Shown piece after piece: positions 5,017-36,677 of a stretch of 36,955 bases of DNA; position 1 is the stretch's first letter; every line of letters begins with the position of its first letter. The translations under genes and the position numbers were made by a program. The stretch spans positions 1-36,955 of IMG/VR virus record IMGVR_UViG_3300037961_002141; one strand, 5' to 3'. The notes below the pieces were generated by a model. The model searched no databases. It saw only the letters and a list, made by a program, of their open reading frames with translations, and was not told the DNA's origin. This DNA comes from a virus.

Positions 5017-6177
5017 ATGGCAAGCACCTATGTAAATGATTTAAGACTTAATGAGCTGGGTACTGGCGATGGTTCTGGTACTTGGGGAACTACAACCAAC
5101 ACTAATCTTGAGCTTATTGGCGAGGCACTTGGATTTGGCACGGAAGCCATATCCACCAATGCTAATACTCACACGAGCACGATAGCTGATGGATCAACTG
5201 ATCCAGCTAGATCTATGTACATTAAATATACTGGTGCTTTAGATTCTGACTGCACCATCACCATCGATCCTAACACGATTAGTCGAGTTCACATTATTGA
5301 GAACGCTACGACAGACAGTGGCTCTAGTGGACCATACAATATCATTATCAAACAAGGTTCGGGGGCAACTGTAACTATAGCCAACGGTCAAGTAGCCATG
5401 GTCTATCTTGACGGTGCTGGTAGTGGTGCAAAAGTTGTAAACGCTTTAACTAATCTTAGTGCAACATACGGTTCTTTAACGACTTCAAGTTTGTTAAAAG
5501 TAAGTGCAGATGCAGACGCAGATGATGTCACTGGCGATAGTGCAACGGGCAGATTAACCATAGGCGCAGGTGAAGATCTGAATCTGTATCATGGTGGCAC
5601 CAACTCTTACATCGTCAATGACACAGGCAATCTAGTTATAGATACGGCTAGTCTTGTTTTAAAAGGAGCAACTCCTACTCTGACTATTGGAGATGCTGAT
5701 GCTGAAGATACAAAAATAGTATTCGATGGCAATGCACAAGATTTTTATGTTGGACTAGATGACAGCGAAGATGACCTTGTTATCGGTAAAGGTTCTGCTC
5801 TAGGCACAACCCCAGCAATATCCGTTGATGAAAATTTAATTGTTACTGTTCACAACAGAGCAATCAGCGGAACTATTGTTGATGAGGGAAACTCTGGAGT
5901 TTTTGATCTAGCAGATGGTAATAATTTTAAAGCTACTCCAACAAGTACCGTTAGTGAATTAACATTCAGCAATCCTACTGCTGGGCAAAGTGGTAATGTG
6001 TTCTTTAATAACTCAGCAGGTGCTGCAGTCTCAGCGGCACACTCAGCAGTGGCTATAAATGCAGCAGCCTTAACTTCTCTTAGCACTGCTGGAGTGTATT
6101 TCTTAACATACTACTGCACTGCTGGAGATAGCAGTGCTAATAGCATACTTGTCTCAGTATCAGGAGCTTTGACCTAA
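5017..6177 (+). CDS. Tail fibre-like protein (386 aa)
   Basis: AAGGAAGA precedes ATG at 5017. The N-terminus (ASTYVNDLRLNELGTGDGSGTWGTTTNTN) is a signature of marine-phage fibre and structural proteins and probably anchors the protein to the particle. The middle has DLNLYHGGTNSYIVNDTGNLVI and repeated DADAED-type loops, the beta-helix or shaft-like segment often found in cyanophage and pelagiphage fibres. The C-terminus is small-residue rich (SAGVYFLTYYCTAGDSSANSILVSVSGALT). The gene ends by overlapping the ATG of the next, larger fibre gene by one base, so the two may be assembled together. Receptor contact or shaft function is inferred from family style. Confidence 0.7.
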   Translation: MASTYVNDLRLNELGTGDGSGTWGTTTNTNLELIGEALGFGTEAISTNANTHTSTIADGSTDPARSMYIKYTGALDSDCTITIDPNTISRVHIIENATTDSGSSGPYNIIIKQGSGATVTIANGQVAMVYLDGAGSGAKVVNALTNLSATYGSLTTSSLLKVSADADADDVTGDSATGRLTIGAGEDLNLYHGGTNSYIVNDTGNLVIDTASLVLKGATPTLTIGDADAEDTKIVFDGNAQDFYVGLDDSEDDLVIGKGSALGTTPAISVDENLIVTVHNRAISGTIVDEGNSGVFDLADGNNFKATPTSTVSELTFSNPTAGQSGNVFFNNSAGAAVSAAHSAVAINAAALTSLSTAGVYFLTYYCTAGDSSANSILVSVSGALT

Positions 6178-8699
6178 TGTCTATAATATCTGGTGTAGGG
6201 GCAGGTCTTGGTGGCGCTGGTGATTCTGGTGGTGCTCTGGGATCTTTTTATAGCCACACGATTAACCAATCGTTAAAACTAGATGATGGGTCTGGTGGAC
6301 ACCTCACAATATCTTCTGCTTCTCCGACAGCAACTAACAGAAAAAAAGTTACGATAAGTTGTTGGGTAAAACGATCAACAATCGGAACAGAGGTCAATAC
6401 TGTATTTTGGGCTAGCACTGCTGGACTTATGTTGCAGTTTTTTGCAGATAATACTATTTACATTTATGATAATAATGCTGGTGGGTGGCAGTCTACTGTT
6501 ACTAATGGTGGGCGTCTTTTTCGAGATATTGGGTCATGGTATCATCTCGCCTTAATTATTGATACTACGCAATCAACAGAGGCAGACAGAGCAAAATTCT
6601 ATATCAATGGTGAACTACAGACTCTAAACAGTTACCCCGGATCAAACACTGATATAACTTGGCACACAGGAAGCACCATGAAAATTGGTAATCCTAATGA
6701 CTCAACTGATCTAGCTGGGTACATAGCGGAGTTTATTTCTATAGACGGTCAAGATGTCTCAATATCTGATCTGGGAGAAACGAAAGACGGAGTTTGGATT
6801 CCAAAGAATGTGTCAGGTCTGACACTGGGTGACGCAGGATTTTATCTTAAATTTGATAATAGTTCAGATATTGGCAATGATTCAGGTTCAAACAATATTG
6901 ATTTTACTGCAAGTAACCTAGTTGCGGCAGATGTTATGCCAGATAGCCCGACCAATAATTTTGCTACGTTTAATTCTTTGTTGTATCACGGCAACACTTA
7001 TTCTGAAGGCAATTTGAAAAATAGTTCACCCACAACCGATTATGAAATTCAGGTTGCAACAATGTTTCCTGCTGGTATTTCTGGTAAATGGTACGCAGAA
7101 TTTTATGTTCATACTTGCAATGCTAGTGGCACAAGGGTTGGTGTTGGGGTAACAGATCCAAATGTAGACCCGGAAGATTATCTTGGCAACGAATCTCCAG
7201 ATGTTGCTTACTACGACATTAATGACATTTACACGGGAGGCAGTAAAACCGCTGACACAGACGCAACTTTTGCTGCTGGGGATATTATTAGTGTTGCATT
7301 AAATTTAGATGATGGTGAGGTTACGTTTAGGAAAAACAATTCTACAATGAGCAACGGCACTCAAAACCTTGTTGCAAGTACATTGTACACTTTTGCTACA
7401 AGTAATTATGGTTCTGGTGCTGGTGTAGTCGCCAATTTTGGACAAGACGATACTTTTGCTGGTAACAAAACAAGCGGTTCAGCGGCTGCTTCAGATGGTA
7501 ATGGCATTGGAGATTTTTATTATGCACCGCCATCTGATTTTTTAGCCCTTTGTGCATCCAACTTGCCAGACCCAACAATCGGCCCCGGACAAGACACCCT
7601 AGCTACTGATCTCTTTAATACGATACTGTGGACGGGCGATGGAAATACAAGTCGCGCAATAACTGGAGTCGGTTTCGCTCCCGACCTGATGTGGCTTAAA
7701 TCTCGTAGTCACACGGAAGATCACGCTTTAGAAGATACCGTTAGAGGTGTTGGCAAAAAATTAGATAGTAGTGGCACAGAAACGGAAGAAACTACAGCTA
7801 CGGCTGTTTTAAGCGCACACGGATCAGATGGGTTTACACTTCCTGCAAGCACTCCGGGAAACTTAAATGTAAATACAAGAACTTATGTTGCTTGGAACTG
7901 GAAGGCGGGTGGTAAAGCAGATACATTTAATATTAACGGCACTGGTTATAGTTCTGCATCTGATGCAAGTCTTAGTGGCGGTGATATTACTCCGACAGGT
8001 GCATCAATAAACACGGCTGCGGGTTTCGGCATAATTGCATACACTGGCGACGGTACAAGTGGAGCTAGGACAGTCAAACATGGTTTATCAAGTCCACCCG
8101 AGTTGATATTTATTAAAGACCGAGACGCTAACAGTAACAATGGTCAGTGGCAAGCATCATCGTCAGTTGTTGGTGATGATTATGGTTATTTATCCACTAC
8201 GGCGGCGTTTACTGGTGCAGCTTTAATGAAGCCTACAGCGGGTGATGCTACAACTATTCAATTAGGACTTGGTATTACCGCTACTACAAATGAAAGTGGT
8301 GATGATTTTATTATGTACCTTTTTCATAGTGTAGAGGGCTTTAGCAAGGTTGGTACTTATGATGGAAATCAACAGAATTATGATGATGGCACATATATAT
8401 ACACCGGATTCCGTCCGGCTCTGGTTGTGGTGAAAACCGCAGTTACCACCACCAGTAATTGGGTTGTTACAGATAATAAAAGAGCATCTGCTTTCAATGG
8501 TAATACAACTAGACTTTATTGGAATACCAATGGGTCAGAAACAGCATACAATTCAAACAGAAATGTAGAACTTTTTAGCAATGGATTCACGGTGCATGGA
8601 AATAATGCAAGTGATAATGCTAATAGAATTAATCAACCCACAAGCTATCTTTTTTATGCTGTGGCTGAAGCCCCATTTAAATTTGCTAATGCACGATAG
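6177..8699 (+). CDS. Large tail fibre/receptor-binding protein with LamG, SPRY-like and triple repeat domains
   Basis: The protein has 840 residues. Residues about 45-215 form a concanavalin-like LamG domain (KKVTISCWVKRS, WYHLALIID, KFYINGELQ, GYIAEFISIDGQ). Residues about 300-440 look SPRY-like (GKWYAEFYV, GVGVTDPN, DDGEVTFRKNNSTM, VVANFGQDDTF). The remaining 360 residues hold three related units, each opening with a 'GF.PDLMWLK / PPELIFIK / FRPALVVVK' strand and closing with an aromatic strand, the last being YLFYAVAEAPFKFANAR, a typical phage fibre C-terminus. These folds bind carbohydrate or protein ligands, so a host-recognition role is likely. The gene is between a smaller fibre gene and a possible fibre-assembly gene. 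No autoproteolysis or catalytic motif was recognised. Confidence 0.75.
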   Translation: MSIISGVGAGLGGAGDSGGALGSFYSHTINQSLKLDDGSGGHLTISSASPTATNRKKVTISCWVKRSTIGTEVNTVFWASTAGLMLQFFADNTIYIYDNNAGGWQSTVTNGGRLFRDIGSWYHLALIIDTTQSTEADRAKFYINGELQTLNSYPGSNTDITWHTGSTMKIGNPNDSTDLAGYIAEFISIDGQDVSISDLGETKDGVWIPKNVSGLTLGDAGFYLKFDNSSDIGNDSGSNNIDFTASNLVAADVMPDSPTNNFATFNSLLYHGNTYSEGNLKNSSPTTDYEIQVATMFPAGISGKWYAEFYVHTCNASGTRVGVGVTDPNVDPEDYLGNESPDVAYYDINDIYTGGSKTADTDATFAAGDIISVALNLDDGEVTFRKNNSTMSNGTQNLVASTLYTFATSNYGSGAGVVANFGQDDTFAGNKTSGSAAASDGNGIGDFYYAPPSDFLALCASNLPDPTIGPGQDTLATDLFNTILWTGDGNTSRAITGVGFAPDLMWLKSRSHTEDHALEDTVRGVGKKLDSSGTETEETTATAVLSAHGSDGFTLPASTPGNLNVNTRTYVAWNWKAGGKADTFNINGTGYSSASDASLSGGDITPTGASINTAAGFGIIAYTGDGTSGARTVKHGLSSPPELIFIKDRDANSNNGQWQASSSVVGDDYGYLSTTAAFTGAALMKPTAGDATTIQLGLGITATTNESGDDFIMYLFHSVEGFSKVGTYDGNQQNYDDGTYIYTGFRPALVVVKTAVTTTSNWVVTDNKRASAFNGNTTRLYWNTNGSETAYNSNRNVELFSNGFTVHGNNASDNANRINQPTSYLFYAVAEAPFKFANAR

Positions 8700-11170: not shown

Positions 11171-11460
11171 TGGCTACTAATGTAACTCCATTTCCAAGAC
11201 TGCCTACTCCAGGTCAACAGATTGATACGAAGTACATAACAGATCTTGTCAGAGCTTTAGAAGTGTTCTTAAAACAGGCACAAAATCCACAGCTTAACTT
11301 TCCTGAAGTGCCTACTGACGGAAACAATCACCTGCTACAACAGGGTGATATCTTCATTGCGGATGGTGGTTTTTTAAAAGTAGTGTTGAAGACAGACATA
11401 CATGCCGGGACTTTGTCGGCGACGGGATCTGTCGGGACTGTTACAGTTGCCGTTTCTTAA
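11170..11460 (+). CDS. Small tail-associated protein with C-terminal GSVGTVTV motif (96 aa)
   Basis: TAATG overlap fixes the start. The N-terminal half has a Pro-rich lead (TPFPRLPTPGQQ) then a helix (TKYITDLVRALEVFLKQAQNP), a layout seen immediately after gp10-like genes in marine phages. A short beta region follows (NNHLLQQGDIFIADGGFLKVV), and the protein ends with LSATGSVGTVTVAVS, the same module repeated in the gene at 4494. It could be a small tail-fibre or tail-hub accessory protein; that is inferred from position. Its stop codon sits in a small hairpin and next to a promoter-like sequence for the following genes. Confidence 0.6.
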   Translation: MATNVTPFPRLPTPGQQIDTKYITDLVRALEVFLKQAQNPQLNFPEVPTDGNNHLLQQGDIFIADGGFLKVVLKTDIHAGTLSATGSVGTVTVAVS

Positions 11461-11474
11461 CGAAACTGTATAAT
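11447..11474 (+). promoter_or_regulatory. Candidate internal late promoter
   Basis: TTGCCG at 11447-11452 and a perfect TATAAT at 11469-11474 are separated by 16 bases, in the only gap larger than about 15 bases among the rightward genes. A GTTTC/GAAAC inverted repeat lies in the spacer. A second TATAAA follows at about 11483. It would drive the internal virion protein genes from 11500 onward. The call is based on consensus match only. Confidence 0.4.
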
Positions 11475-11499
11475 GACATCGGTATAAAAAGGTCGTGTA

Positions 11500-12450
11500 A
11501 TGGCGTTATTTGGTGGCATAGGTAAAAAACTAGGACTTGGCAGCGCCGAAGATGTCTTTGGTGAGGGTATAGGTAGTCTTGTTGCGAATGTCGGAGACAC
11601 GATAAACGAGGCTCTACCTACCATTGGTGCTGCTGTTGGCTATGCTTATGGTGGACCTGCGTTCGCGGCCCTCGGTTCTGGGCTTGGCACGGCTGCTCAA
11701 GGTGGTAGAAGCACAAGAGATATACTGATTAACTCAGCTTTGGCCTTTGGTGCAGGTAAAGTTGCTCAAGGAGTTGGTATTAGGCCACAAGGTGGAAATT
11801 TTGGACAAGGAGGTATAGGCAGCTTCTTGCCCGACACGTCTCAGTTCTCTGCTTTTGGGATGGGACCCGGAACAGAGGGAGCAGAATATGCGGAGATGTT
11901 TAAGGACACCTCATATGGAGCAGATGATTTAGTGGGATCTGCTGCTGACACAGCAACTAAAAGTGGTGGTGTTATGGACACCATAGCTGGGATCTCTTTA
12001 AGTGATGCTGCGCTTGGTGCTGCCGCTGGTCTTGGCCTTGGCGCACTTTTGGGTGGTGATCCGCCTGAAGAAGACGACACACCAGAGAGGCCCTATCCAA
12101 AAGGCGAAGCTTTTGGTACAGTACAGGATCAGGAAGGCAATGTGTATAGCATTGCTGACTCAGAACAGTTGGCTGAGTACAACAAGATGATGCGACAGTA
12201 CCAAAGACCAGACTTTGAGTATGATCTAAGCTCTGTGATCAGAGCTAAACACGGTGGATCTTTTGACGAGCTTGTTGATGGTGAAGTGAAGGGTCCCGGA
12301 ACTGGGACCTCGGACTCTGTTCCTGCTAAACTTTCTGATGGTGAGTTCGTATTGACAGCCAAAGCTGTCCGTGGTGCTGGCGGTGGAGATAGAGATATCG
12401 GAGCAGCCCGTTTATATGATATGATGGCGGATCTGGAGGCGACAGCGTAA
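11500..12450 (+). CDS. Internal virion/ejection-type protein with Gly/Ala hydrophobic segments (316 aa)
   Basis: The N-terminal half is rich in Gly and Ala with hydrophobic stretches (TIGAAVGYAYGGPAFAALGSGLG, ILINSALAFGAGKVAQGVG), and another lies near residues 165-190 (SDAALGAAAGLGLGALLGGD). These could insert in a membrane during DNA ejection. The C-terminal 70 residues (HGGSFDELVDGEVKGPGTGTSDSVPAKLSDGEFVLTAKAVRGAGGG) are a very characteristic marine-phage tail-end motif of unknown function. It is the first gene after a promoter-like site, and overlaps the next by one base. An ejection or internal core role is inferred from hydrophobicity and from the position between tail hub and lysozyme genes. 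Confidence 0.65.
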   Translation: MALFGGIGKKLGLGSAEDVFGEGIGSLVANVGDTINEALPTIGAAVGYAYGGPAFAALGSGLGTAAQGGRSTRDILINSALAFGAGKVAQGVGIRPQGGNFGQGGIGSFLPDTSQFSAFGMGPGTEGAEYAEMFKDTSYGADDLVGSAADTATKSGGVMDTIAGISLSDAALGAAAGLGLGALLGGDPPEEDDTPERPYPKGEAFGTVQDQEGNVYSIADSEQLAEYNKMMRQYQRPDFEYDLSSVIRAKHGGSFDELVDGEVKGPGTGTSDSVPAKLSDGEFVLTAKAVRGAGGGDRDIGAARLYDMMADLEATA

Positions 12451-22914: not shown

Positions 22915-24425
22915 AGCTGAAACCCATAATATGATTGTGATTCGATAATGTGCAGGGACTTTCGAGCACGAGTCAGTCCAACATAGAACGTCCTGATCTC
23001 AGCGTCCTGATCCCTGCTCTCAACACAAGCCCTCGAAGAGTCGAGCAGCAGAGCTACGTTGTCTGCTTCACCACCCTTGGCTTTGTGTATAGTTGATATC
23101 CTGATTCGCGGCTTGCCTGTCAGGATAGATTCACCCATCCGGCGGACAGACGTAATGTATATCCGCTCGTTTTCCGACACCTTCAGCACCTCGTGCCATG
23201 GTGTATCGATCTCTGCTGTCAACTCACCCAGAGTTTTGACATCACTGAAACCATATGTTTCTTCTGCATCCAGACTAGCAAGCTTCTTCCTGCCAGACTT
23301 AGTTATGGCATCCGATAACAGTAGCGTTGATAGCTTCTTGATGTCTGCCGCAGACAAGAACCTGCCCCTACATAGATCCAGCCACATCTCGATGCCGCTC
23401 AACACGTTTGGTGATATCGACCAGCCCGACCCTTCTCGCCAGTACAGATAGCCCTGATCCTTTAGATCACTAGCCACCCTGTTTGCGATGTAGTTTGTTC
23501 GAGCCAGTATCAACCACTCGCCCGTCCTGATATCCACATCCATGATATCCCGGTGCCATGTTATCGAACCTTGCTCTTCGGTGCTTGACCATGTCTTTGG
23601 TTGTCTCGTTATCAAACGTCTGACCATATTGTCTGCTTGTTTGTGTATCGACACAGGCAGGCGGTATGACTTGTCGAGCACAATCTTGTTAGGGCAGGCA
23701 TTCAAGAAGTCTTTGACATCCACACCCATCCACGAATAGATGCACTGATCATCATCCCCGGCATAGTATATGCGCTTGGCGTTGGGCTTCATCACCTCGT
23801 GCACCATGCGCCATTGTAGCGGAACCAGATCCTGTGCTTCGTCCACAATCAAAACATCTAGCAGCGGACTGTCGCCCTGTTCGATGAAGTCCTCGATCAT
23901 GTCCACGAAATCTATCTTGCCTGTCTCTTTCTTGTAGTCACGCAACACCTCGTCCACCAGCTTGAGTTGTTGATAGTGCAGTCTGCGATCAGCCACCTCG
24001 TTGAACTGTTGCTCGATGCTGACCCCCCGAACCCGTGCCATCTGTATGATAAACATATATGCGTCACCACTCTTGCCGGGGGTAAACAACAGACCATCGG
24101 CCATGGTAACTGACGAGTTCGAGCTAAACTCAAGACCCAGCAGCTTGCCGATCTTGGTAAAATCCTTGCCAACCAACACCTGCTTTGTCGTCAGACCCAT
24201 GTATTGAAACGCAAAGCTATGCAACGTGCGGAACCATACCATCTGATCCACATCCATGTTTAGCTTTGCCGCTGCCCTCTCTCGAGCTTCCTCCGCCGCC
24301 TTACGAGAAAAAGATACGAACGCAATATGTTCAGGAAGTGTGCCATTCTCTAGCTCTTGCTGTACGATCTCGATGAGTCTTGTTGTCTTGCCAGTGCCTG
24401 GGGGTCCGAAGATTGTAGTTTCCAT
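22911..24425 (-). CDS. UvrD/Rep-like superfamily 1 DNA helicase
   Basis: The 504-residue protein has the SF1A motifs in order: Walker A GPPGTGKTT (7-15), Ia FVSFSRKAA (36-44), II VDEAQD (194-199), III AGDDDQCIYSW (222-232), IV SYR (253-255), V TIHKAKGGEAD (445-455) and VI YVGLTRARKSL (481-491). It should unwind DNA 3' to 5' with ATP. It is shorter than E. coli UvrD (720) because accessory subdomains are reduced. Its start overlaps the primase stop (TAATG), so the two are co-translated. Roles in replication-fork progress, repair or recombination are all possible; with no DnaB-type helicase visible in the window, it or the SNF2 protein may act at the fork. Confidence 0.93.
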   Translation of the reverse strand: METTIFGPPGTGKTTRLIEIVQQELENGTLPEHIAFVSFSRKAAEEARERAAAKLNMDVDQMVWFRTLHSFAFQYMGLTTKQVLVGKDFTKIGKLLGLEFSSNSSVTMADGLLFTPGKSGDAYMFIIQMARVRGVSIEQQFNEVADRRLHYQQLKLVDEVLRDYKKETGKIDFVDMIEDFIEQGDSPLLDVLIVDEAQDLVPLQWRMVHEVMKPNAKRIYYAGDDDQCIYSWMGVDVKDFLNACPNKIVLDKSYRLPVSIHKQADNMVRRLITRQPKTWSSTEEQGSITWHRDIMDVDIRTGEWLILARTNYIANRVASDLKDQGYLYWREGSGWSISPNVLSGIEMWLDLCRGRFLSAADIKKLSTLLLSDAITKSGRKKLASLDAEETYGFSDVKTLGELTAEIDTPWHEVLKVSENERIYITSVRRMGESILTGKPRIRISTIHKAKGGEADNVALLLDSSRACVESRDQDAEIRTFYVGLTRARKSLHIIESQSYYGFQL

Positions 24426-25960
24426 TAGAACGGCACCCCACTATCTTGGACCTCGATACTTGGAACTTGGATCTCTCTGTTGAACGCAGGCACCCACCAG
24501 ACTCGAAGCTGCTTGGACTCACCCTTGGTTGTATTGAATCGTTTCTTACCATGTGCAGCAGAACCAGAATTCATTTCCTTGAGTCGCTCCTGAATCTGAC
24601 CCCGGCTGTATGTATCGAACTTGTTGTTACGCAGATACTTCATTAGTGCTTCGATCTTGAAGTATGTCATGTTGTCTTCTTCATCAGTGTACGGCTTACC
24701 CAGACTAATCTCTTCGGCTGATTGTGCCTGCACCCGGCCATCACAAAACGCCTCGAGCAGATCCATGAACTGCCCTTTGTATGTCAATTCTTCCGGCACC
24801 TCGATCTCACTCATGTCCTCCATCATGATCGATACAATGACCTGCCACTCTGCCAGCTTCATCAGCGGCGGCATCTTACGGATCTGTTCCATGCAGGCTT
24901 TTTGGAATCGTTGCGGTGTTTGCAGATCATCCGTTGTCAGTTCGACACGTTGCCCTGCCACGTCACAGAACCACACGGGCGGTTCAGATTTGACCACGCA
25001 CAGTCCTGATATATCCACGTTTGAGGCATGACCACCGATGCCATACTTCTTTGTCTTGCACAGACTCTTGTTGCAAAAGCTTTTGAGTGGCTCCTGATCA
25101 CACGGAAAACCATACTCTTTCTTTTCATGCTGAGTCTGGATCGTCACAACCTCTGATGCTGGCAGGGGCGGTGTACAAAACTTGTTGTTGATTTCCTCGA
25201 GTCGAGCCTTCCAGTTGTCCGGCTGCTCTTTCTTGCATCCCACGGCTGCTGCAAACATTACTGTGTTGCGTGTGCCTTCGGGTATACCCTGCCCAAACAT
25301 ACAGTTCAGGCAGGGTGCCCACTCATTGAACTCATCGATCTGTTTACCAAAGGTCAAACCAACAAAAGCCTCTGGCTCCACAGTCCTCCCATCGACGAGT
25401 TGCAAGAATTCTTTTAGTGTTGCAGCTTCTCCGTCTTCTTTAATAGCAAAGCGGAGCGTCTGTTTCGCATCAAAGTACGGAAGGTTAATAAAGTTCCCAA
25501 CATCACCACGCTCGACAATAATCTGTTCTTGCTTTGGGAATATCTCACAGCCACCGTATCCAAGATACGATGCAATCTCTGACGCTTTGTCACGGAACTC
25601 TCCTGCACTTATATAGGTCTTAAAGAAAAAGAATATGTGTGCACCACCAGACTTGGATCGACAGACCACAGCCGGAACTTCCATCTTCCGTAGCTTCTTG
25701 TCTATCGCAGCCAGATCAAGTGGATACTGATCGATGTCTAACGCACCGAACTTGCACTCGTTATTCTCGTTGATCGGTATCGAACCTACACCGCCCTCGC
25801 CCTTGAGGTGACCAGCGATAAGTTCAACCGTAAGTGGTTTACGAACGATGACAGACTTGGCCTTTTGTTTGCCAGCCCTTCGTTCATTCGATATTTGTGT
25901 CTGTCCATGTGCCGCACCAAAACCTTCAAACGCAGCCATGAACCGTTGTAAGTAGCTCAT
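24425..25960 (-). CDS. Archaeo-eukaryotic-type primase (TOTE/PrimPol-like)
   Basis: The start at 25960 (MSYLQRFMAAF) has AGGGG eight bases upstream; an in-frame Met at 25993 is less well placed. Motif I is FGALDIDQY (D75, D77), motif II is SKSGGAHIFFF (H108), and motif III resembles NFINLPYFD. This set fits the AEP primase domain of the TOTE type. A following region (WAPCLNCMFGQGIPEGTRNTVMFAAA) resembles the helical PriCT-like domain of such enzymes, and a Cys cluster (CNKSLC...H) may hold a metal. The C-terminus reads VQDSGVPF, close to the SSB-type tip of the neighbouring SSB-like protein. It would make primers for the family A polymerase encoded two genes downstream. Length is 511 residues. 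Confidence 0.85.
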   Translation of the reverse strand: MSYLQRFMAAFEGFGAAHGQTQISNERRAGKQKAKSVIVRKPLTVELIAGHLKGEGGVGSIPINENNECKFGALDIDQYPLDLAAIDKKLRKMEVPAVVCRSKSGGAHIFFFFKTYISAGEFRDKASEIASYLGYGGCEIFPKQEQIIVERGDVGNFINLPYFDAKQTLRFAIKEDGEAATLKEFLQLVDGRTVEPEAFVGLTFGKQIDEFNEWAPCLNCMFGQGIPEGTRNTVMFAAAVGCKKEQPDNWKARLEEINNKFCTPPLPASEVVTIQTQHEKKEYGFPCDQEPLKSFCNKSLCKTKKYGIGGHASNVDISGLCVVKSEPPVWFCDVAGQRVELTTDDLQTPQRFQKACMEQIRKMPPLMKLAEWQVIVSIMMEDMSEIEVPEELTYKGQFMDLLEAFCDGRVQAQSAEEISLGKPYTDEEDNMTYFKIEALMKYLRNNKFDTYSRGQIQERLKEMNSGSAAHGKKRFNTTKGESKQLRVWWVPAFNREIQVPSIEVQDSGVPF

Positions 25961-26143
25961 GGGTATTCCCCTTGTTGGTTTGGGGTGCCGCAAAAAATGA
26001 CACGAAACATTTTTTGAGTTGAACCATCATCAAAGCCATGCCCTTTAAAAGCTTTGAAGAGTCAAGCAAGATTCAACTATCACATGACCACCCTATCAAG
26101 ACGTCAAACTTTATGATCATGAGAAAACGACACCCCAAGAGGT
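25961..26143. other. 183-bp non-coding stretch with nested inverted repeats; possible operator/origin or leader
   Basis: This is the largest gap in the replication genes. It has a perfect CAAAAAATG/CATTTTTTG inverted repeat (25991-25999 and 26008-26016), and a nested pair: AGTTGAA/TTCAACT (26017-26023 and 26072-26078) enclosing TCAAAGC/GCTTTGA (26030-26036 and 26051-26057). An ATGATCAT palindrome lies at 26113-26120. A leftward promoter-like TTGACG (26102-26107) with 17-bp spacing to TGTGAT (26079-26084) may serve the primase operon. An origin or autoregulatory site is possible but unproven. Confidence 0.5.
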
Positions 26144-28208: not shown

Positions 28209-28430
28209 TTAGTTCTCCATTTCAGCAACATGCTTTTCTTTAGTTTTATATTTGAAAGACTTGTCTTTCTTCACACCGCTGTACCGTGTTCTAGATACTG
28301 TGTGATCTAAGTCTCTCACCATGTATGACAACTGCATCGGAACGCTTCTGTGTTCAAACTCTGCGATCGCATGCAGCTTCTCGTAGACATCAACCGGAAC
28401 TGCTACTGACTTAAACTTCTTCGTATCCAT
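28209..28430 (-). CDS. Ribbon-helix-helix (Arc/CopG-type) DNA-binding protein (73 aa)
   Basis: Residues 6-12 (FKSVAVP) form the DNA-contacting strand, 13-25 (VDVYEKLHAIAEF) helix A and 30-42 (VPMQLSYMVRDLD) helix B of the ribbon-helix-helix fold. A basic tail follows (RTRYSGVKKDKSFKYKTKEKH). Such dimeric proteins repress or tune phage promoters. A TTGACA promoter and two TTATCC repeats 10 bp apart lie just upstream of its start, which would suit autoregulation. AGGAGAAAAG precedes the ATG. It is the first gene of the transcript that leads to the zinc-finger, coiled-coil, SSB and primase genes. Confidence 0.8.
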   Translation of the reverse strand: MDTKKFKSVAVPVDVYEKLHAIAEFEHRSVPMQLSYMVRDLDHTVSRTRYSGVKKDKSFKYKTKEKHVAEMEN

Positions 28431-34699: not shown

Positions 34700-34922
34700 T
34701 GGTTTGATCCTTCCAAAAAGTAGTATTCTCAGTTTTGGTTGCGAGTGAAACAATACAGCTATTCAACTCTTGTGCTATTGGATACATGTCCCTCGCGATT
34801 TCAATGTCAGTTGAATGACGCAGATGCCCATCAACGCAAACACTGAACTTGTCGAATGCATCTTGTAACTTCCACATCACTTCGCGAATTTCCTGTATTT
34901 CTTTTTGATTTCCATATGTCAT
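34689..34922 (-). CDS. Small helical hypothetical protein (77 aa)
   Basis: ATG at 34922 overlaps the upstream stop as TAATG. The product MTYGNQKEIQEIREVMWKLQDAFDKFSVCVDG, then RDMYPIAQELNSCIVSLATKTENTTFW is helical. It ends KDQTNDD, coded by the repeated leader sequence that precedes the next gene. No family is recognised. Confidence 0.65.
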   Translation of the reverse strand: MTYGNQKEIQEIREVMWKLQDAFDKFSVCVDGHLRHSTDIEIARDMYPIAQELNSCIVSLATKTENTTFWKDQTNDD

Positions 34923-35125
34923 TAGTTTGAAACCTCCCATCCCTCATTTTCAAAATGCTCGATCCAATCCTTCAAATACTCACGCACCATGATCAGTCCG
35001 CCATTCTTGTTGAAGTTAGACTCGTTGTAATTTTCCAAATAACACACGGCCTCATCATTTTGAGGCATGAGCAAAAACACATCCTGATGTGCCACAATCT
35101 TGTAGTCCGCAACTTTTGTATTCAT
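34922..35125 (-). CDS. First small gene of the early leftward operon (67 aa)
   Basis: ATG at 35125 is preceded by AAGGGGATCAAACCA. A much longer frame extends past 36400 on this strand but runs through the terminase and nuclease genes and is rejected. The product MNTKVADYKIVAHQDVFLLMPQNDEAVCYLENY has a beta-rich N-terminus and ends in helix EYLKDWIEHFENEGWEVSN. It is the promoter-proximal gene of the leftward early operon, downstream of the promoter candidate at 35183-35212. Function is unknown. Confidence 0.7.
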   Translation of the reverse strand: MNTKVADYKIVAHQDVFLLMPQNDEAVCYLENYNESNFNKNGGLIMVREYLKDWIEHFENEGWEVSN

Positions 35126-35145
35126 TGGTTTGATCCCCTTGTATC

Positions 35146-35166
35146 TTGAACCTTGAACCTCGAACC
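35146..35166. repeat. Heptamer tandem repeat in the leader of the early operon
   Basis: TTGAACC, TTGAACC and TCGAACC follow one another with a 7-bp period. On the - strand, in the transcript direction, this is three copies of a GGTTCRA unit lying in the untranslated leader of the first early gene. Confidence 0.8.
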
Positions 35167-35182
35167 TGTATGGTTTGAGTAA

Positions 35183-35212
35183 TTTATAATGAACCGTATC
35201 ACCTTTTCCCAA
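35183..35212 (-). promoter_or_regulatory. Candidate leftward early promoter
   Basis: In leftward reading, TTGGGA (35207-35212) and TATAAA (35183-35188) are separated by 18 bp, in an AT-rich gap of about 290 bp without a gene. The start site would lie about 60 bases before the first small gene at 35125. It is a consensus match only and could be one of several sites. Confidence 0.45.
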
Positions 35213-35310
35213 CTTACACAATAGTACATGGGAATAAAAGATACAGAAAACAAGAGGCAGATAATGTTTTTTTTGGATAACAAAAAATATTTTTATTTTT
35301 GCTATAAAAA

Positions 35311-35387
35311 GTGTCTCAGGTGTCTCAGGTGTCTCAAATGGCTTCCAATAACAATTATAGCTAAGACACTTGTGAGACAGTGAGACA
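35311..35387. promoter_or_regulatory. Cluster of direct and inverted GTGTCTCA/GTGAGACA repeats
   Basis: Three tandem 9-bp units GTGTCTCAG (35311-35319, 35320-35328, and 35329-35337 with a final A) are followed after 34 bp by two tandem 8-bp units of the complementary sequence GTGAGACA (35372-35379, 35380-35387) and a partial AAGACAC at 35364-35370. The block lies between the divergent leftward operon and the rightward terminase gene, immediately after a TATAAA box at 35303-35308. It looks like an operator or an iteron cluster. Confidence 0.6.
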
Positions 35388-35419
35388 GTTTTAATGCTGA
35401 CTAAGGGAGATTTTTTGGT

Positions 35420-35995
35420 TTGAAAAACACTGAACCCAAAAAAAACACTATTAGAAAAGGCGGTAGGCCAGCCGGATTGACCAACCGTCAGAGACAATTC
35501 GCCAAGTATTATGTCGAGGGAAAATACTCGAATGCTGAATGCGCGAGGCTGGCTGGATATGCTGACGGCAGTGCCAACAACCACGCCGCCAAGCTTCTTG
35601 ATGGCAAGTCTTTTCCTGAAGTACCCGAACTGATCAAAGAACTTCGAGAGGCCAGAGAGCGCAGGTTCGGAGTCACTGTCATTGGTCAACTCAAACGCTT
35701 TGAGGAACTGTCCATGGCGGCTGAAGAGGCTGGGCAATTCAGTGCCGCTATCAATGCTGAGAAAATCCGCTCGAGTCTGGGCGGCTTGACCATCGATAGG
35801 CGCGAGTCCACCCATGTCCATCAGCTTGATAATATGTCGCGTGAAGACATTGTTGCCAGACTGGCAAGTCTCCGCAAGAACTACCCCCATGCTTTTGCTG
35901 ATATGAAAAGAGTTGAGGATGCCAGCGACAGAACAATCACTGTGGAAGCTATTGAAGCAAAACCTGCCAAGGAAAACGCACTGCGAGAGGATTGA
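35420..35995 (+). CDS. terS: Terminase small subunit
   Basis: The start is TTG at 35420 with AAGGGAGA nine bases upstream. The N-terminus is basic, and residues 19-62 (GLTNRQRQFAKYYVEGKYSNAECARLAGYADGSANNHAAKLL) form the helix-turn-helix typical of small terminase subunits that recognise packaging sites. A helical oligomerisation region follows (RERRFGVTVIGQLKRFEELSMAAEEAGQF, SAAINAEKIRSSLGGL), then a tail. It would bind the pac/cos site and regulate the large subunit, which is not in the window. It overlaps the nuclease gene by about 77 bp. Family is called from the HTH motif with good confidence. Confidence 0.8.
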   Translation: MKNTEPKKNTIRKGGRPAGLTNRQRQFAKYYVEGKYSNAECARLAGYADGSANNHAAKLLDGKSFPEVPELIKELREARERRFGVTVIGQLKRFEELSMAAEEAGQFSAAINAEKIRSSLGGLTIDRRESTHVHQLDNMSREDIVARLASLRKNYPHAFADMKRVEDASDRTITVEAIEAKPAKENALRED

Positions 35996-36356
35996 AAACC
36001 GCAGTGCTGAAGGGATGCCGGACGTATATCTATGCATAGACGGCGTTCCCATATGGCTTGAGTTAAAAATAATAAAAAATGGTAGGGTCAGCGTGTCCAA
36101 GTCGCAGATTGCTTGGCATTCCTCGCATTCGCGTTGTGGCGGTGTTGGTTTTTTCTTGCTGAACGACCCCTCTACCTCCGACCTATTTTTATTTGACGGC
36201 GCATCGGTGATCGAGATCCACGGTTCGCGGATCGATGACCTGCGGCCTGCGGCCTTATATGTAGGTGATATGTCTGGGCTGATCGAGAGCCTGCGGCCTG
36301 CGGCCTGCGACCTCTGGTGTAGATCGATGACCTGCGGCCTGCGGCCTGCGCCCTGA
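35919..36356 (+). CDS. PD-(D/E)XK nuclease (VRR-NUC/resolvase-like) with repeat-derived tail
   Basis: ATG at 35919 is used; a TTG two codons earlier is possible. The 145-residue protein has HCERIENRS (E26), GMPDV (D35), WLELK (E48, K50) and KSQIAWH (Q63), the PD-(D/E)XK core of VRR-NUC or Holliday-junction-resolvase-like phage nucleases. It could process branched or packaging DNA. From about residue 105 the sequence is built of LRPAA repeats encoded by CCTGCGG units (SLRPAACDLWC, TCGLRPAP), so the native C-terminus has probably been replaced by repeat expansion. The strong overlap with the terminase gene is unusual but the motifs favour translation of this frame. Confidence 0.75.
   Translation: MPATEQSLWKLLKQNLPRKTHCERIENRSAEGMPDVYLCIDGVPIWLELKIIKNGRVSVSKSQIAWHSSHSRCGGVGFFLLNDPSTSDLFLFDGASVIEIHGSRIDDLRPAALYVGDMSGLIESLRPAACDLWCRSMTCGLRPAP
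36230..36353. repeat. GC-rich CCTGCGG repeat array, three tracts
   Basis: Tracts of CCTGCGGCCTGCGGCC type occur at 36239-36255, 36290-36313 and 36331-36353. The first and third are preceded by the same GATCGATGA (36230 and 36322) and followed by related TGATATGTC sequence, giving an imperfect duplication of about 91 bp. The GC content is far above the surroundings. It forms the 3' end of the nuclease gene. Confidence 0.85.
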
Positions 36357-36385
36357 TATGTCGGAGCACGATCCGAAAAAGAATA

Positions 36386-36406
36386 CCCAGCGACAGAGTC
36401 GCTGGG
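36386..36406 (-). terminator. Hairpin terminator between nuclease gene and leftward gene
   Basis: CCCAGCGA (36386-36393) pairs perfectly with TCGCTGGG (36399-36406) over a 5-base loop. Reading leftward the stem is followed by TATTCTTTTTC, a good terminator tail for the gene at 36423-36677; the rightward side lacks a T-run. A TCGGA/TCCGA pair lies at 36361-36376. Confidence 0.6.
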
Positions 36407-36422
36407 CATCTTCGGGGAAACC

Positions 36423-36677
36423 CTAATATGTGAAGCCAGTGTAGACAATGGTGTCTTCTTTCAAGAATATTTCGCGGTTCATATCTTCATAGTCTGATAG
36501 TGAGTACTCCGCTGGCCTTGTCTTGGTGGCCTTGTTTCGGTGGTTGATGACATAGACGGCCTTGGCATTGGGCTTGCGCTTTACTAGGTCGCCTACGTTT
36601 AGATGACGAAGCGCAATTGCCTGCACCGTGTCATTGTCTTCAGTCAAATGTAAATTCAATCCGTTTATTAACTGCAT
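36423..36677 (-). CDS. Hypothetical protein (84 aa)
   Basis: AGAGGCAATC precedes ATG at 36677. The product is mixed alpha/beta: NLHLTEDNDTVQAIALRHLNVGDLVKRKPNAKAVYVINHRNK, then PAEYSLSDYEDMNREIFLKEDTIVYTGF. The phrase 'HLNVGDLVKRKPNAKAVYV...' is a small beta-barrel-like start, typical of short phage accessory proteins. It follows the Gp88-family gene closely on the same strand and ends near the hairpin. Function is unknown. Confidence 0.7.
   Translation of the reverse strand: MQLINGLNLHLTEDNDTVQAIALRHLNVGDLVKRKPNAKAVYVINHRNKATKTRPAEYSLSDYEDMNREIFLKEDTIVYTGFTY

Follow-up and report, generated by a model that had tools for sequence, protein, structure and literature searches.

A six-unit repeat array upstream of terS

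The window, which is the whole stretch of DNA that we analysed, is a 36,955-bp IMG/VR record without terminal repeats. It contains a block of short repeats in an intergenic region, with a leftward gene block on one side and the small terminase gene terS (Pfam Terminase_2; 35420..35995, plus strand) on the other. We found GTGTCTCAG, GTGTCTCAG and GTGTCTCAA at 35311-35337 and GTGAGACA, GTGAGACA at 35372-35387, and all the repeat elements described here by the original prediction, which was made from the sequence alone, are present. That prediction counted three plus two tandem units and drew attention to their unequal copy number. All five units are there, but a third, degenerate inverted unit (TAAGACAC at 35362-35369) was overlooked, and the actual layout is 3+3, an arrangement common to relatives of this phage.

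Each unit is 8 bp long and fits the frame RYG-NN-WCA. The three direct units (left iterons 1 to 3, each GTGTCTCA) are on the plus strand at 35311..35318, 35320..35327 and 35329..35336. They are followed by a 25-bp spacer (35337..35361), which in relatives is partly palindromic with a loop that occurs in both orientations (TCCAG / CTGGA). On the minus strand are the three inverted units: the degenerate one, which is innermost and reads GTGTCTTA (35362..35369), and two copies of CTGTCTCA (35373..35380 and 35381..35388). Spacings along the array are 9, 9 / 33 / 11, 8. The block is not a chance cluster. It has 5 clustered 7-mer copies (both strands, 90 bp), whereas no 7-mer had more than 4 when the window was dinucleotide-shuffled as a whole 100 times, and a detector of three direct plus inverted units scored −5 at the block, compared to −3 for the best of 60 window shuffles. 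With three direct units at 9-bp spacing plus three inverted ones, it has the several tandem short repeats in one orientation that characterize iteron origins.

Iteron origins are also characterized by an adjacent AT-rich unwinding element, and the array is abutted on its left side by a tract (35261..35310) that is only 12% GC, the lowest of any 50 bp in the window, and is a putative DNA unwinding element. An AT-rich tract is common to 77 related loci, with a mean of 18% GC as compared to 47% for the loci overall. The TATAAA box that the original prediction noted before the repeats does exist, but TATAAA is not known to have a particular role in bacteria, and a search of 35100-35480 for promoters of the sigma-70 kind found none. 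The GC-skew minimum is close to the array (from −36 to +3562 relative to terS, depending on the genome), but we dropped it as evidence for an origin because it follows gene orientation and is therefore uninformative. A 508-aa open reading frame antisense to terS (34922-36448, minus strand) crosses the array; 23 of the 26 genomes that we compared have a long antisense reading frame at this place, which is probably an effect of codon usage.

Array types and their covariation with the primase

A scan with TerS retrieved 80 marine loci, and the array is at the same place in every one of them whose contig includes the upstream region. The unit frame and the spacings are kept in about 80 marine relatives, in most of which 32 bp separate the array from the start codon of terS downstream. 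A strict-pattern search of the regions read in HTVC023P and HTVC027P found no array. One more distant phage (G024, the contig of locus L144; 37% GC) has a TCT-type array upstream of the nuclease-like gene that in the window comes after terS; terS in this genome (loci L187-L189) is at oriented positions 11217-11786, relocated into the structural gene block, and the array is at 35729. In four loci (L047, L048, L076 and L081) the loop of the spacer palindrome is seen in both orientations (TTATCCAGTAA / TTACTGGATAA), a pattern in the sequences that suggests small inversions at a cruciform.

The arrays of the relatives fall into discrete types, with TCT (the window), GTAACA, GGAACA, GTTACA, GRTACA, GTCACA or GTCTTA cores, and phages can differ in type even though the sequence on either side is nearly the same as far as the array ends. 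Most conserved protein families include at least one pair of proteins that are 97-100% identical even though their phages have different array types. Correlating similarity with type at the level of whole families gave only noise, the signal being confined to the level of sub-domains and residues. A host factor was a candidate reader of the repeats as long as the type seemed to follow no phage gene, and the C-terminus of the primase then displaced it.

The primase (phrog_21866) is a protein of 522 aa encoded at 24425..25993 on the minus strand, with a TTG start at 25993 or an ATG start at 25954; in the window and its clade the gene is about 9 kb from the array. It has an AEP catalytic domain, as ColE2 Rep does (in the primase, Pfam AEP-TOTE, 2e-16, above the cut-off), and a weak match to PriCT_1 whose E value of 0.015 does not reach the curated cut-off. 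Among near-identical phages of different array type, the primases differ mainly or only in their C-terminal region; for example, G019 and G021 have 17 differences, all of them C-terminal. Residue 483 (codon 24545..24547, minus strand) is Lys in the window and in its TCT type, Arg in GAA, Leu in TTA, Gln in RTA and His in TAA types. It was the sole perfect match to array type among 12,575 alignment columns from 102 families, and the runner-up family was an artefact, being the antisense reading frame that crosses the array itself. Type T6 (GTCACA) was left out of this pairing because its contigs are too short.

We then enlarged the set with further loci that have the primase and the array on one contig, giving 30 distinct pairs. 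Residue 483 had a normalised mutual information of 0.85, compared to 0.59 for the next column, and agreed with array type in 40 of 40 within-clade pairs, compared to 31 for the next column. None of 300 within-clade label shuffles reached this agreement (taking the maximum over the C-terminal columns), although the pairs are not fully independent and the permutation figure is therefore a guide only. By our own count there are about ten within-clade switches in this set. Locus L351, with GTAACA units and a T2-like right arm, has the His at 483 that would be expected.

The added loci show the pattern in other clades as well, where Val, Ala and Ile also occur with TA cores, so that H, V, A and I all go with TA. 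The final two scans added Val primases, and wherever an array was detected with one its core was TA; since TA was also the commonest core in those scans, this is a weak confirmation. Exceptions to a one-residue reading are L350 and L352 (Gln with GGGACA), L358 (Gln with GTTACG) and L466 (Leu with GTGTACAA). These loci break any simple rule and we rejected a universal one-residue code; from the sequences, neighbouring wing residues must matter too. As judged by these comparisons, the mapping from residue to base is strong within clades and has exceptions between them.

The segment concerned (24428..24769, minus strand) is predicted to form a winged-helix domain, the proposed binder of the iterons. 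An AlphaFold2 model of the C-terminal 114 residues has a mean pLDDT of 87, rising to about 95 in the folded part, and a winged-helix layout in which residue 483 is placed in the first wing strand. The most conserved C-terminal stretch, R-GQIQER-K, is in the helix preceding the wing in this model, and this stretch may be what reads the invariant bases. When the domain was searched against the PDB with Foldseek, no match was significant. With VIA-align the best matches were TcpK (Z = 6.9, rmsd 3.4 over 84 residues) and the winged helix of SCCmec Cch (5dgk, Z = 6.1), values of 6-7 being a modest level that a common arrangement alone can give.

In iteron replicons the array is usually beside the initiator gene. 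We found relatives of the primase in 24 phage records, and isolates infecting Klebsiella, Salmonella, Providencia and Acinetobacter have similar arrays directly 5' of the primase gene. Klebsiella phages VLCpiS6a and K21lambda1, Pseudomonas phage PSA28 and Salmonella phage PMBT28 have three TGGAACG units plus inverted CGTTCCA-type units, in an intergenic array directly upstream of this gene. Providencia phage Kokobel2 has TGGAACC units, and close to the corresponding wing position its primase has Asp in place of Glu; the Acinetobacter phages have GAGNAACC-type repeats. We also scanned bacterial genomes, where three contigs with AEP primases (L403, L414 and L415) scored −4 (3 of 46 loci, compared to 0 of 138 shuffles); we set these aside as too weak to count as evidence. 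Loci L403, L408 and L415, on Mesorhizobium and Rhodospirillaceae contigs, have tandem plus inverted repeats with a 9-bp period (ACCGACCTT, CCTAGGACA), which are possibly origins of other elements.

Candidate readers and functions of the array

The covariation indicates that the C-terminal domain of the primase very probably recognises the array directly, and points to the primase, through residue 483, as the cognate initiator on the same replicon that an iteron origin would have. We think it very likely that this marine phage starts its replication at the block, as an iteron-type origin whose reader would be the tail domain of the primase that the phage itself encodes. In this model, the winged-helix tails of several primase molecules would bind the six units; contacts to the invariant outer bases (G3, A8 and their neighbours) would come from the conserved helix, and wing residue 483 would help to read the variable central bases, the proposed mode of reading being a wing in the major groove as in TcpK. 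The assembly of primase on the array could then melt the adjacent AT-rich tract and set the primase on the exposed strands, after which the phage's helicases and PolA would take over. The primase and the origin, despite being about 9 kb apart here, appear to behave as one specificity pair.

The main rival involves the same protein and the same DNA: the array could be an operator through which the primase regulates its own gene or represses the divergent genes. Covariation would look the same for binding in regulation and in replication, the array is intergenic between divergent gene blocks, and in the isolates it is upstream of the primase gene itself. We nevertheless regard an operator instead of an origin as improbable. 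In the clade of the window the primase gene is far from the array, the AT-rich tract and the six-site layout are a better fit to an origin, and the region lacks a detectable sigma-70-like promoter. The two roles could coexist.

The original prediction offered operators, replication initiators or a packaging site as possible functions and was partly borne out, though not in the two specific readers that it proposed. One was TerS, bound to a pac site at which packaging would initiate. The short distance between the array and terS in most relatives favours this idea, but a pac site read by TerS is not supported because phages that differ in repeat type can have identical TerS proteins (L027/L028, L036/L037 and L039/L040) and because terS is elsewhere in one relative: in G024 an array of the same type as in the window precedes a different gene and terS is about 24 kb away. 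Repeat specificity does not follow TerS. In addition, the array adjoins the primase gene in the isolates. We rejected TerS as the partner of the repeats, leaving terS as a neighbour only, and consider a pac site very unlikely. The phage could still package its DNA from this region through a mechanism independent of the repeat units.

The other was the RHH-like protein encoded at 28209-28430. RHH proteins often bind short tandem repeats, but this one is identical between phages of different types (G006/L028, G014/G016 and G019/G021), so that array type does not follow it, and we rejected it too. No other conserved protein has a column that tracks type perfectly, and a host factor would leave the match to the primase residue unexplained. 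The chance that the array is an operator for the RHH protein, or for any other repressor encoded by the phage or the host, seems slight. A hairpin of DNA or RNA, for which the arms would need only to be complementary, is scarcely credible and we discarded it: the window version folds well (z = −5.1) and the spacer loop occurs in both orientations in some relatives, but the fold is not kept across types (z = −5.1, −2.5, −1.1 and −1.4 for four types, the last two being no better than shuffles), and a hairpin or cruciform would not explain the homogeneity of the direct repeats or their match to the primase residue.

Comparison with known initiators

As a proposed iteron origin read by a primase, the system resembles several known ones in part. 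Phage P4 alpha, a primase-helicase, binds type I iterons, and lambda O binds its own iterons. By analogy both may be compared to the window primase as phage-encoded replication proteins acting on short origin repeats, although P4 alpha includes a helicase, lambda O is not a primase, and the likeness is by description.

Winged-helix domains of AEP primases from mobile elements have been proposed to be origin binders (PMC5862659), and Rep proteins of the ColE2 class are AEP primases that bind the origin by a DNA-binding domain of their own (PMC5304414). ColE2/ColE3-type Rep (PriCT plus HTH) resembles the window primase as an AEP primase with its own DNA-binding domain, which in the window primase is a predicted one, and as an actual or predicted origin binder. 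In contrast, the protein here is a TOTE-type AEP of a tailed phage, with a putative origin of six units (3+3) some 9 kb from its gene and with switches of specificity in nature that we trace to a residue of the wing. ColE2 origins, unlike the array in the window, are very small and are found at the rep gene or immediately after it (PMC5304414).

The RepA protein of PLE, a satellite of a Vibrio cholerae phage, has an origin-binding domain that covaries with the iterons, and its cognate pairing has been shown experimentally (PMC8263062). Swapping of the matching RepA and origin domains allows escape from an origin-directed nuclease (PMC8263062). The likeness lies in a known or proposed initiator with a domain that varies in step with the iterons and is exchanged among close relatives. 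However, PLE RepA has a RepA_N domain, whereas a Pfam scan of the window primase gave only AEP-TOTE and the weak PriCT_1 match; and in PLE, a satellite, whole domains are exchanged between two groups, whereas in these phages there are many types and one or a few wing residues change.

TcpK of plasmid pCW3 is a wHTH protein that reads 9-nt tandem repeats by means of a beta-wing in the major groove (PMC6137059). It is the solved structure that best matches the C-terminal domain, but it is a separate conjugation accessory protein that acts at oriT and has 6% identity in the aligned part, and the shared fold shows no shared function. The second match, SCCmec Cch, is similarly a wHTH on a replication protein of a mobile element, but its winged helix is attached to a helicase and not to an AEP primase, and the Z-score is modest.

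If the origin reading is true, it locates the replication origin and identifies the initiator of uncultured marine phages that form a widespread group, and does the same for the Klebsiella, Salmonella, Providencia and Acinetobacter isolates with this primase family. Those with the array beside the primase gene would be laboratory systems. The relatives would form a natural series of matched initiator-origin pairs in which to see how specificity shifts when both partners move together, and each residue-483 class yields a plain prediction. More tentatively, the wing could be a largely readable code in which one residue, tuned by its neighbours, selects the central iteron bases, with the array and the distant wing being exchanged or mutated together to create several incompatible replicon classes in one phage group, a switching that is perhaps maintained by origin-targeting satellites, defence systems or competitors; we see this extension as possible but rather doubtful. 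A marine example of escape from origin-directed attack, as shown for an ICP1 satellite (PMC8263062), would be available in these phages if that is why their origin types switch. In a literature search limited to open-licence papers we found no report of this origin or of the covariation.

Two other features of the window may be mentioned. A second cluster of repeats, of CTGCGGCCTGCGGC type with CGCAGGC present five times within 90 bp, is located at 36235-36350, within the 3' portion of the small reading frame after terS, which is nuclease-like. At 6177-8699 there is a gene for an 840-aa protein with SPRY and DUF7483 domains, which is probably tail or receptor-related.
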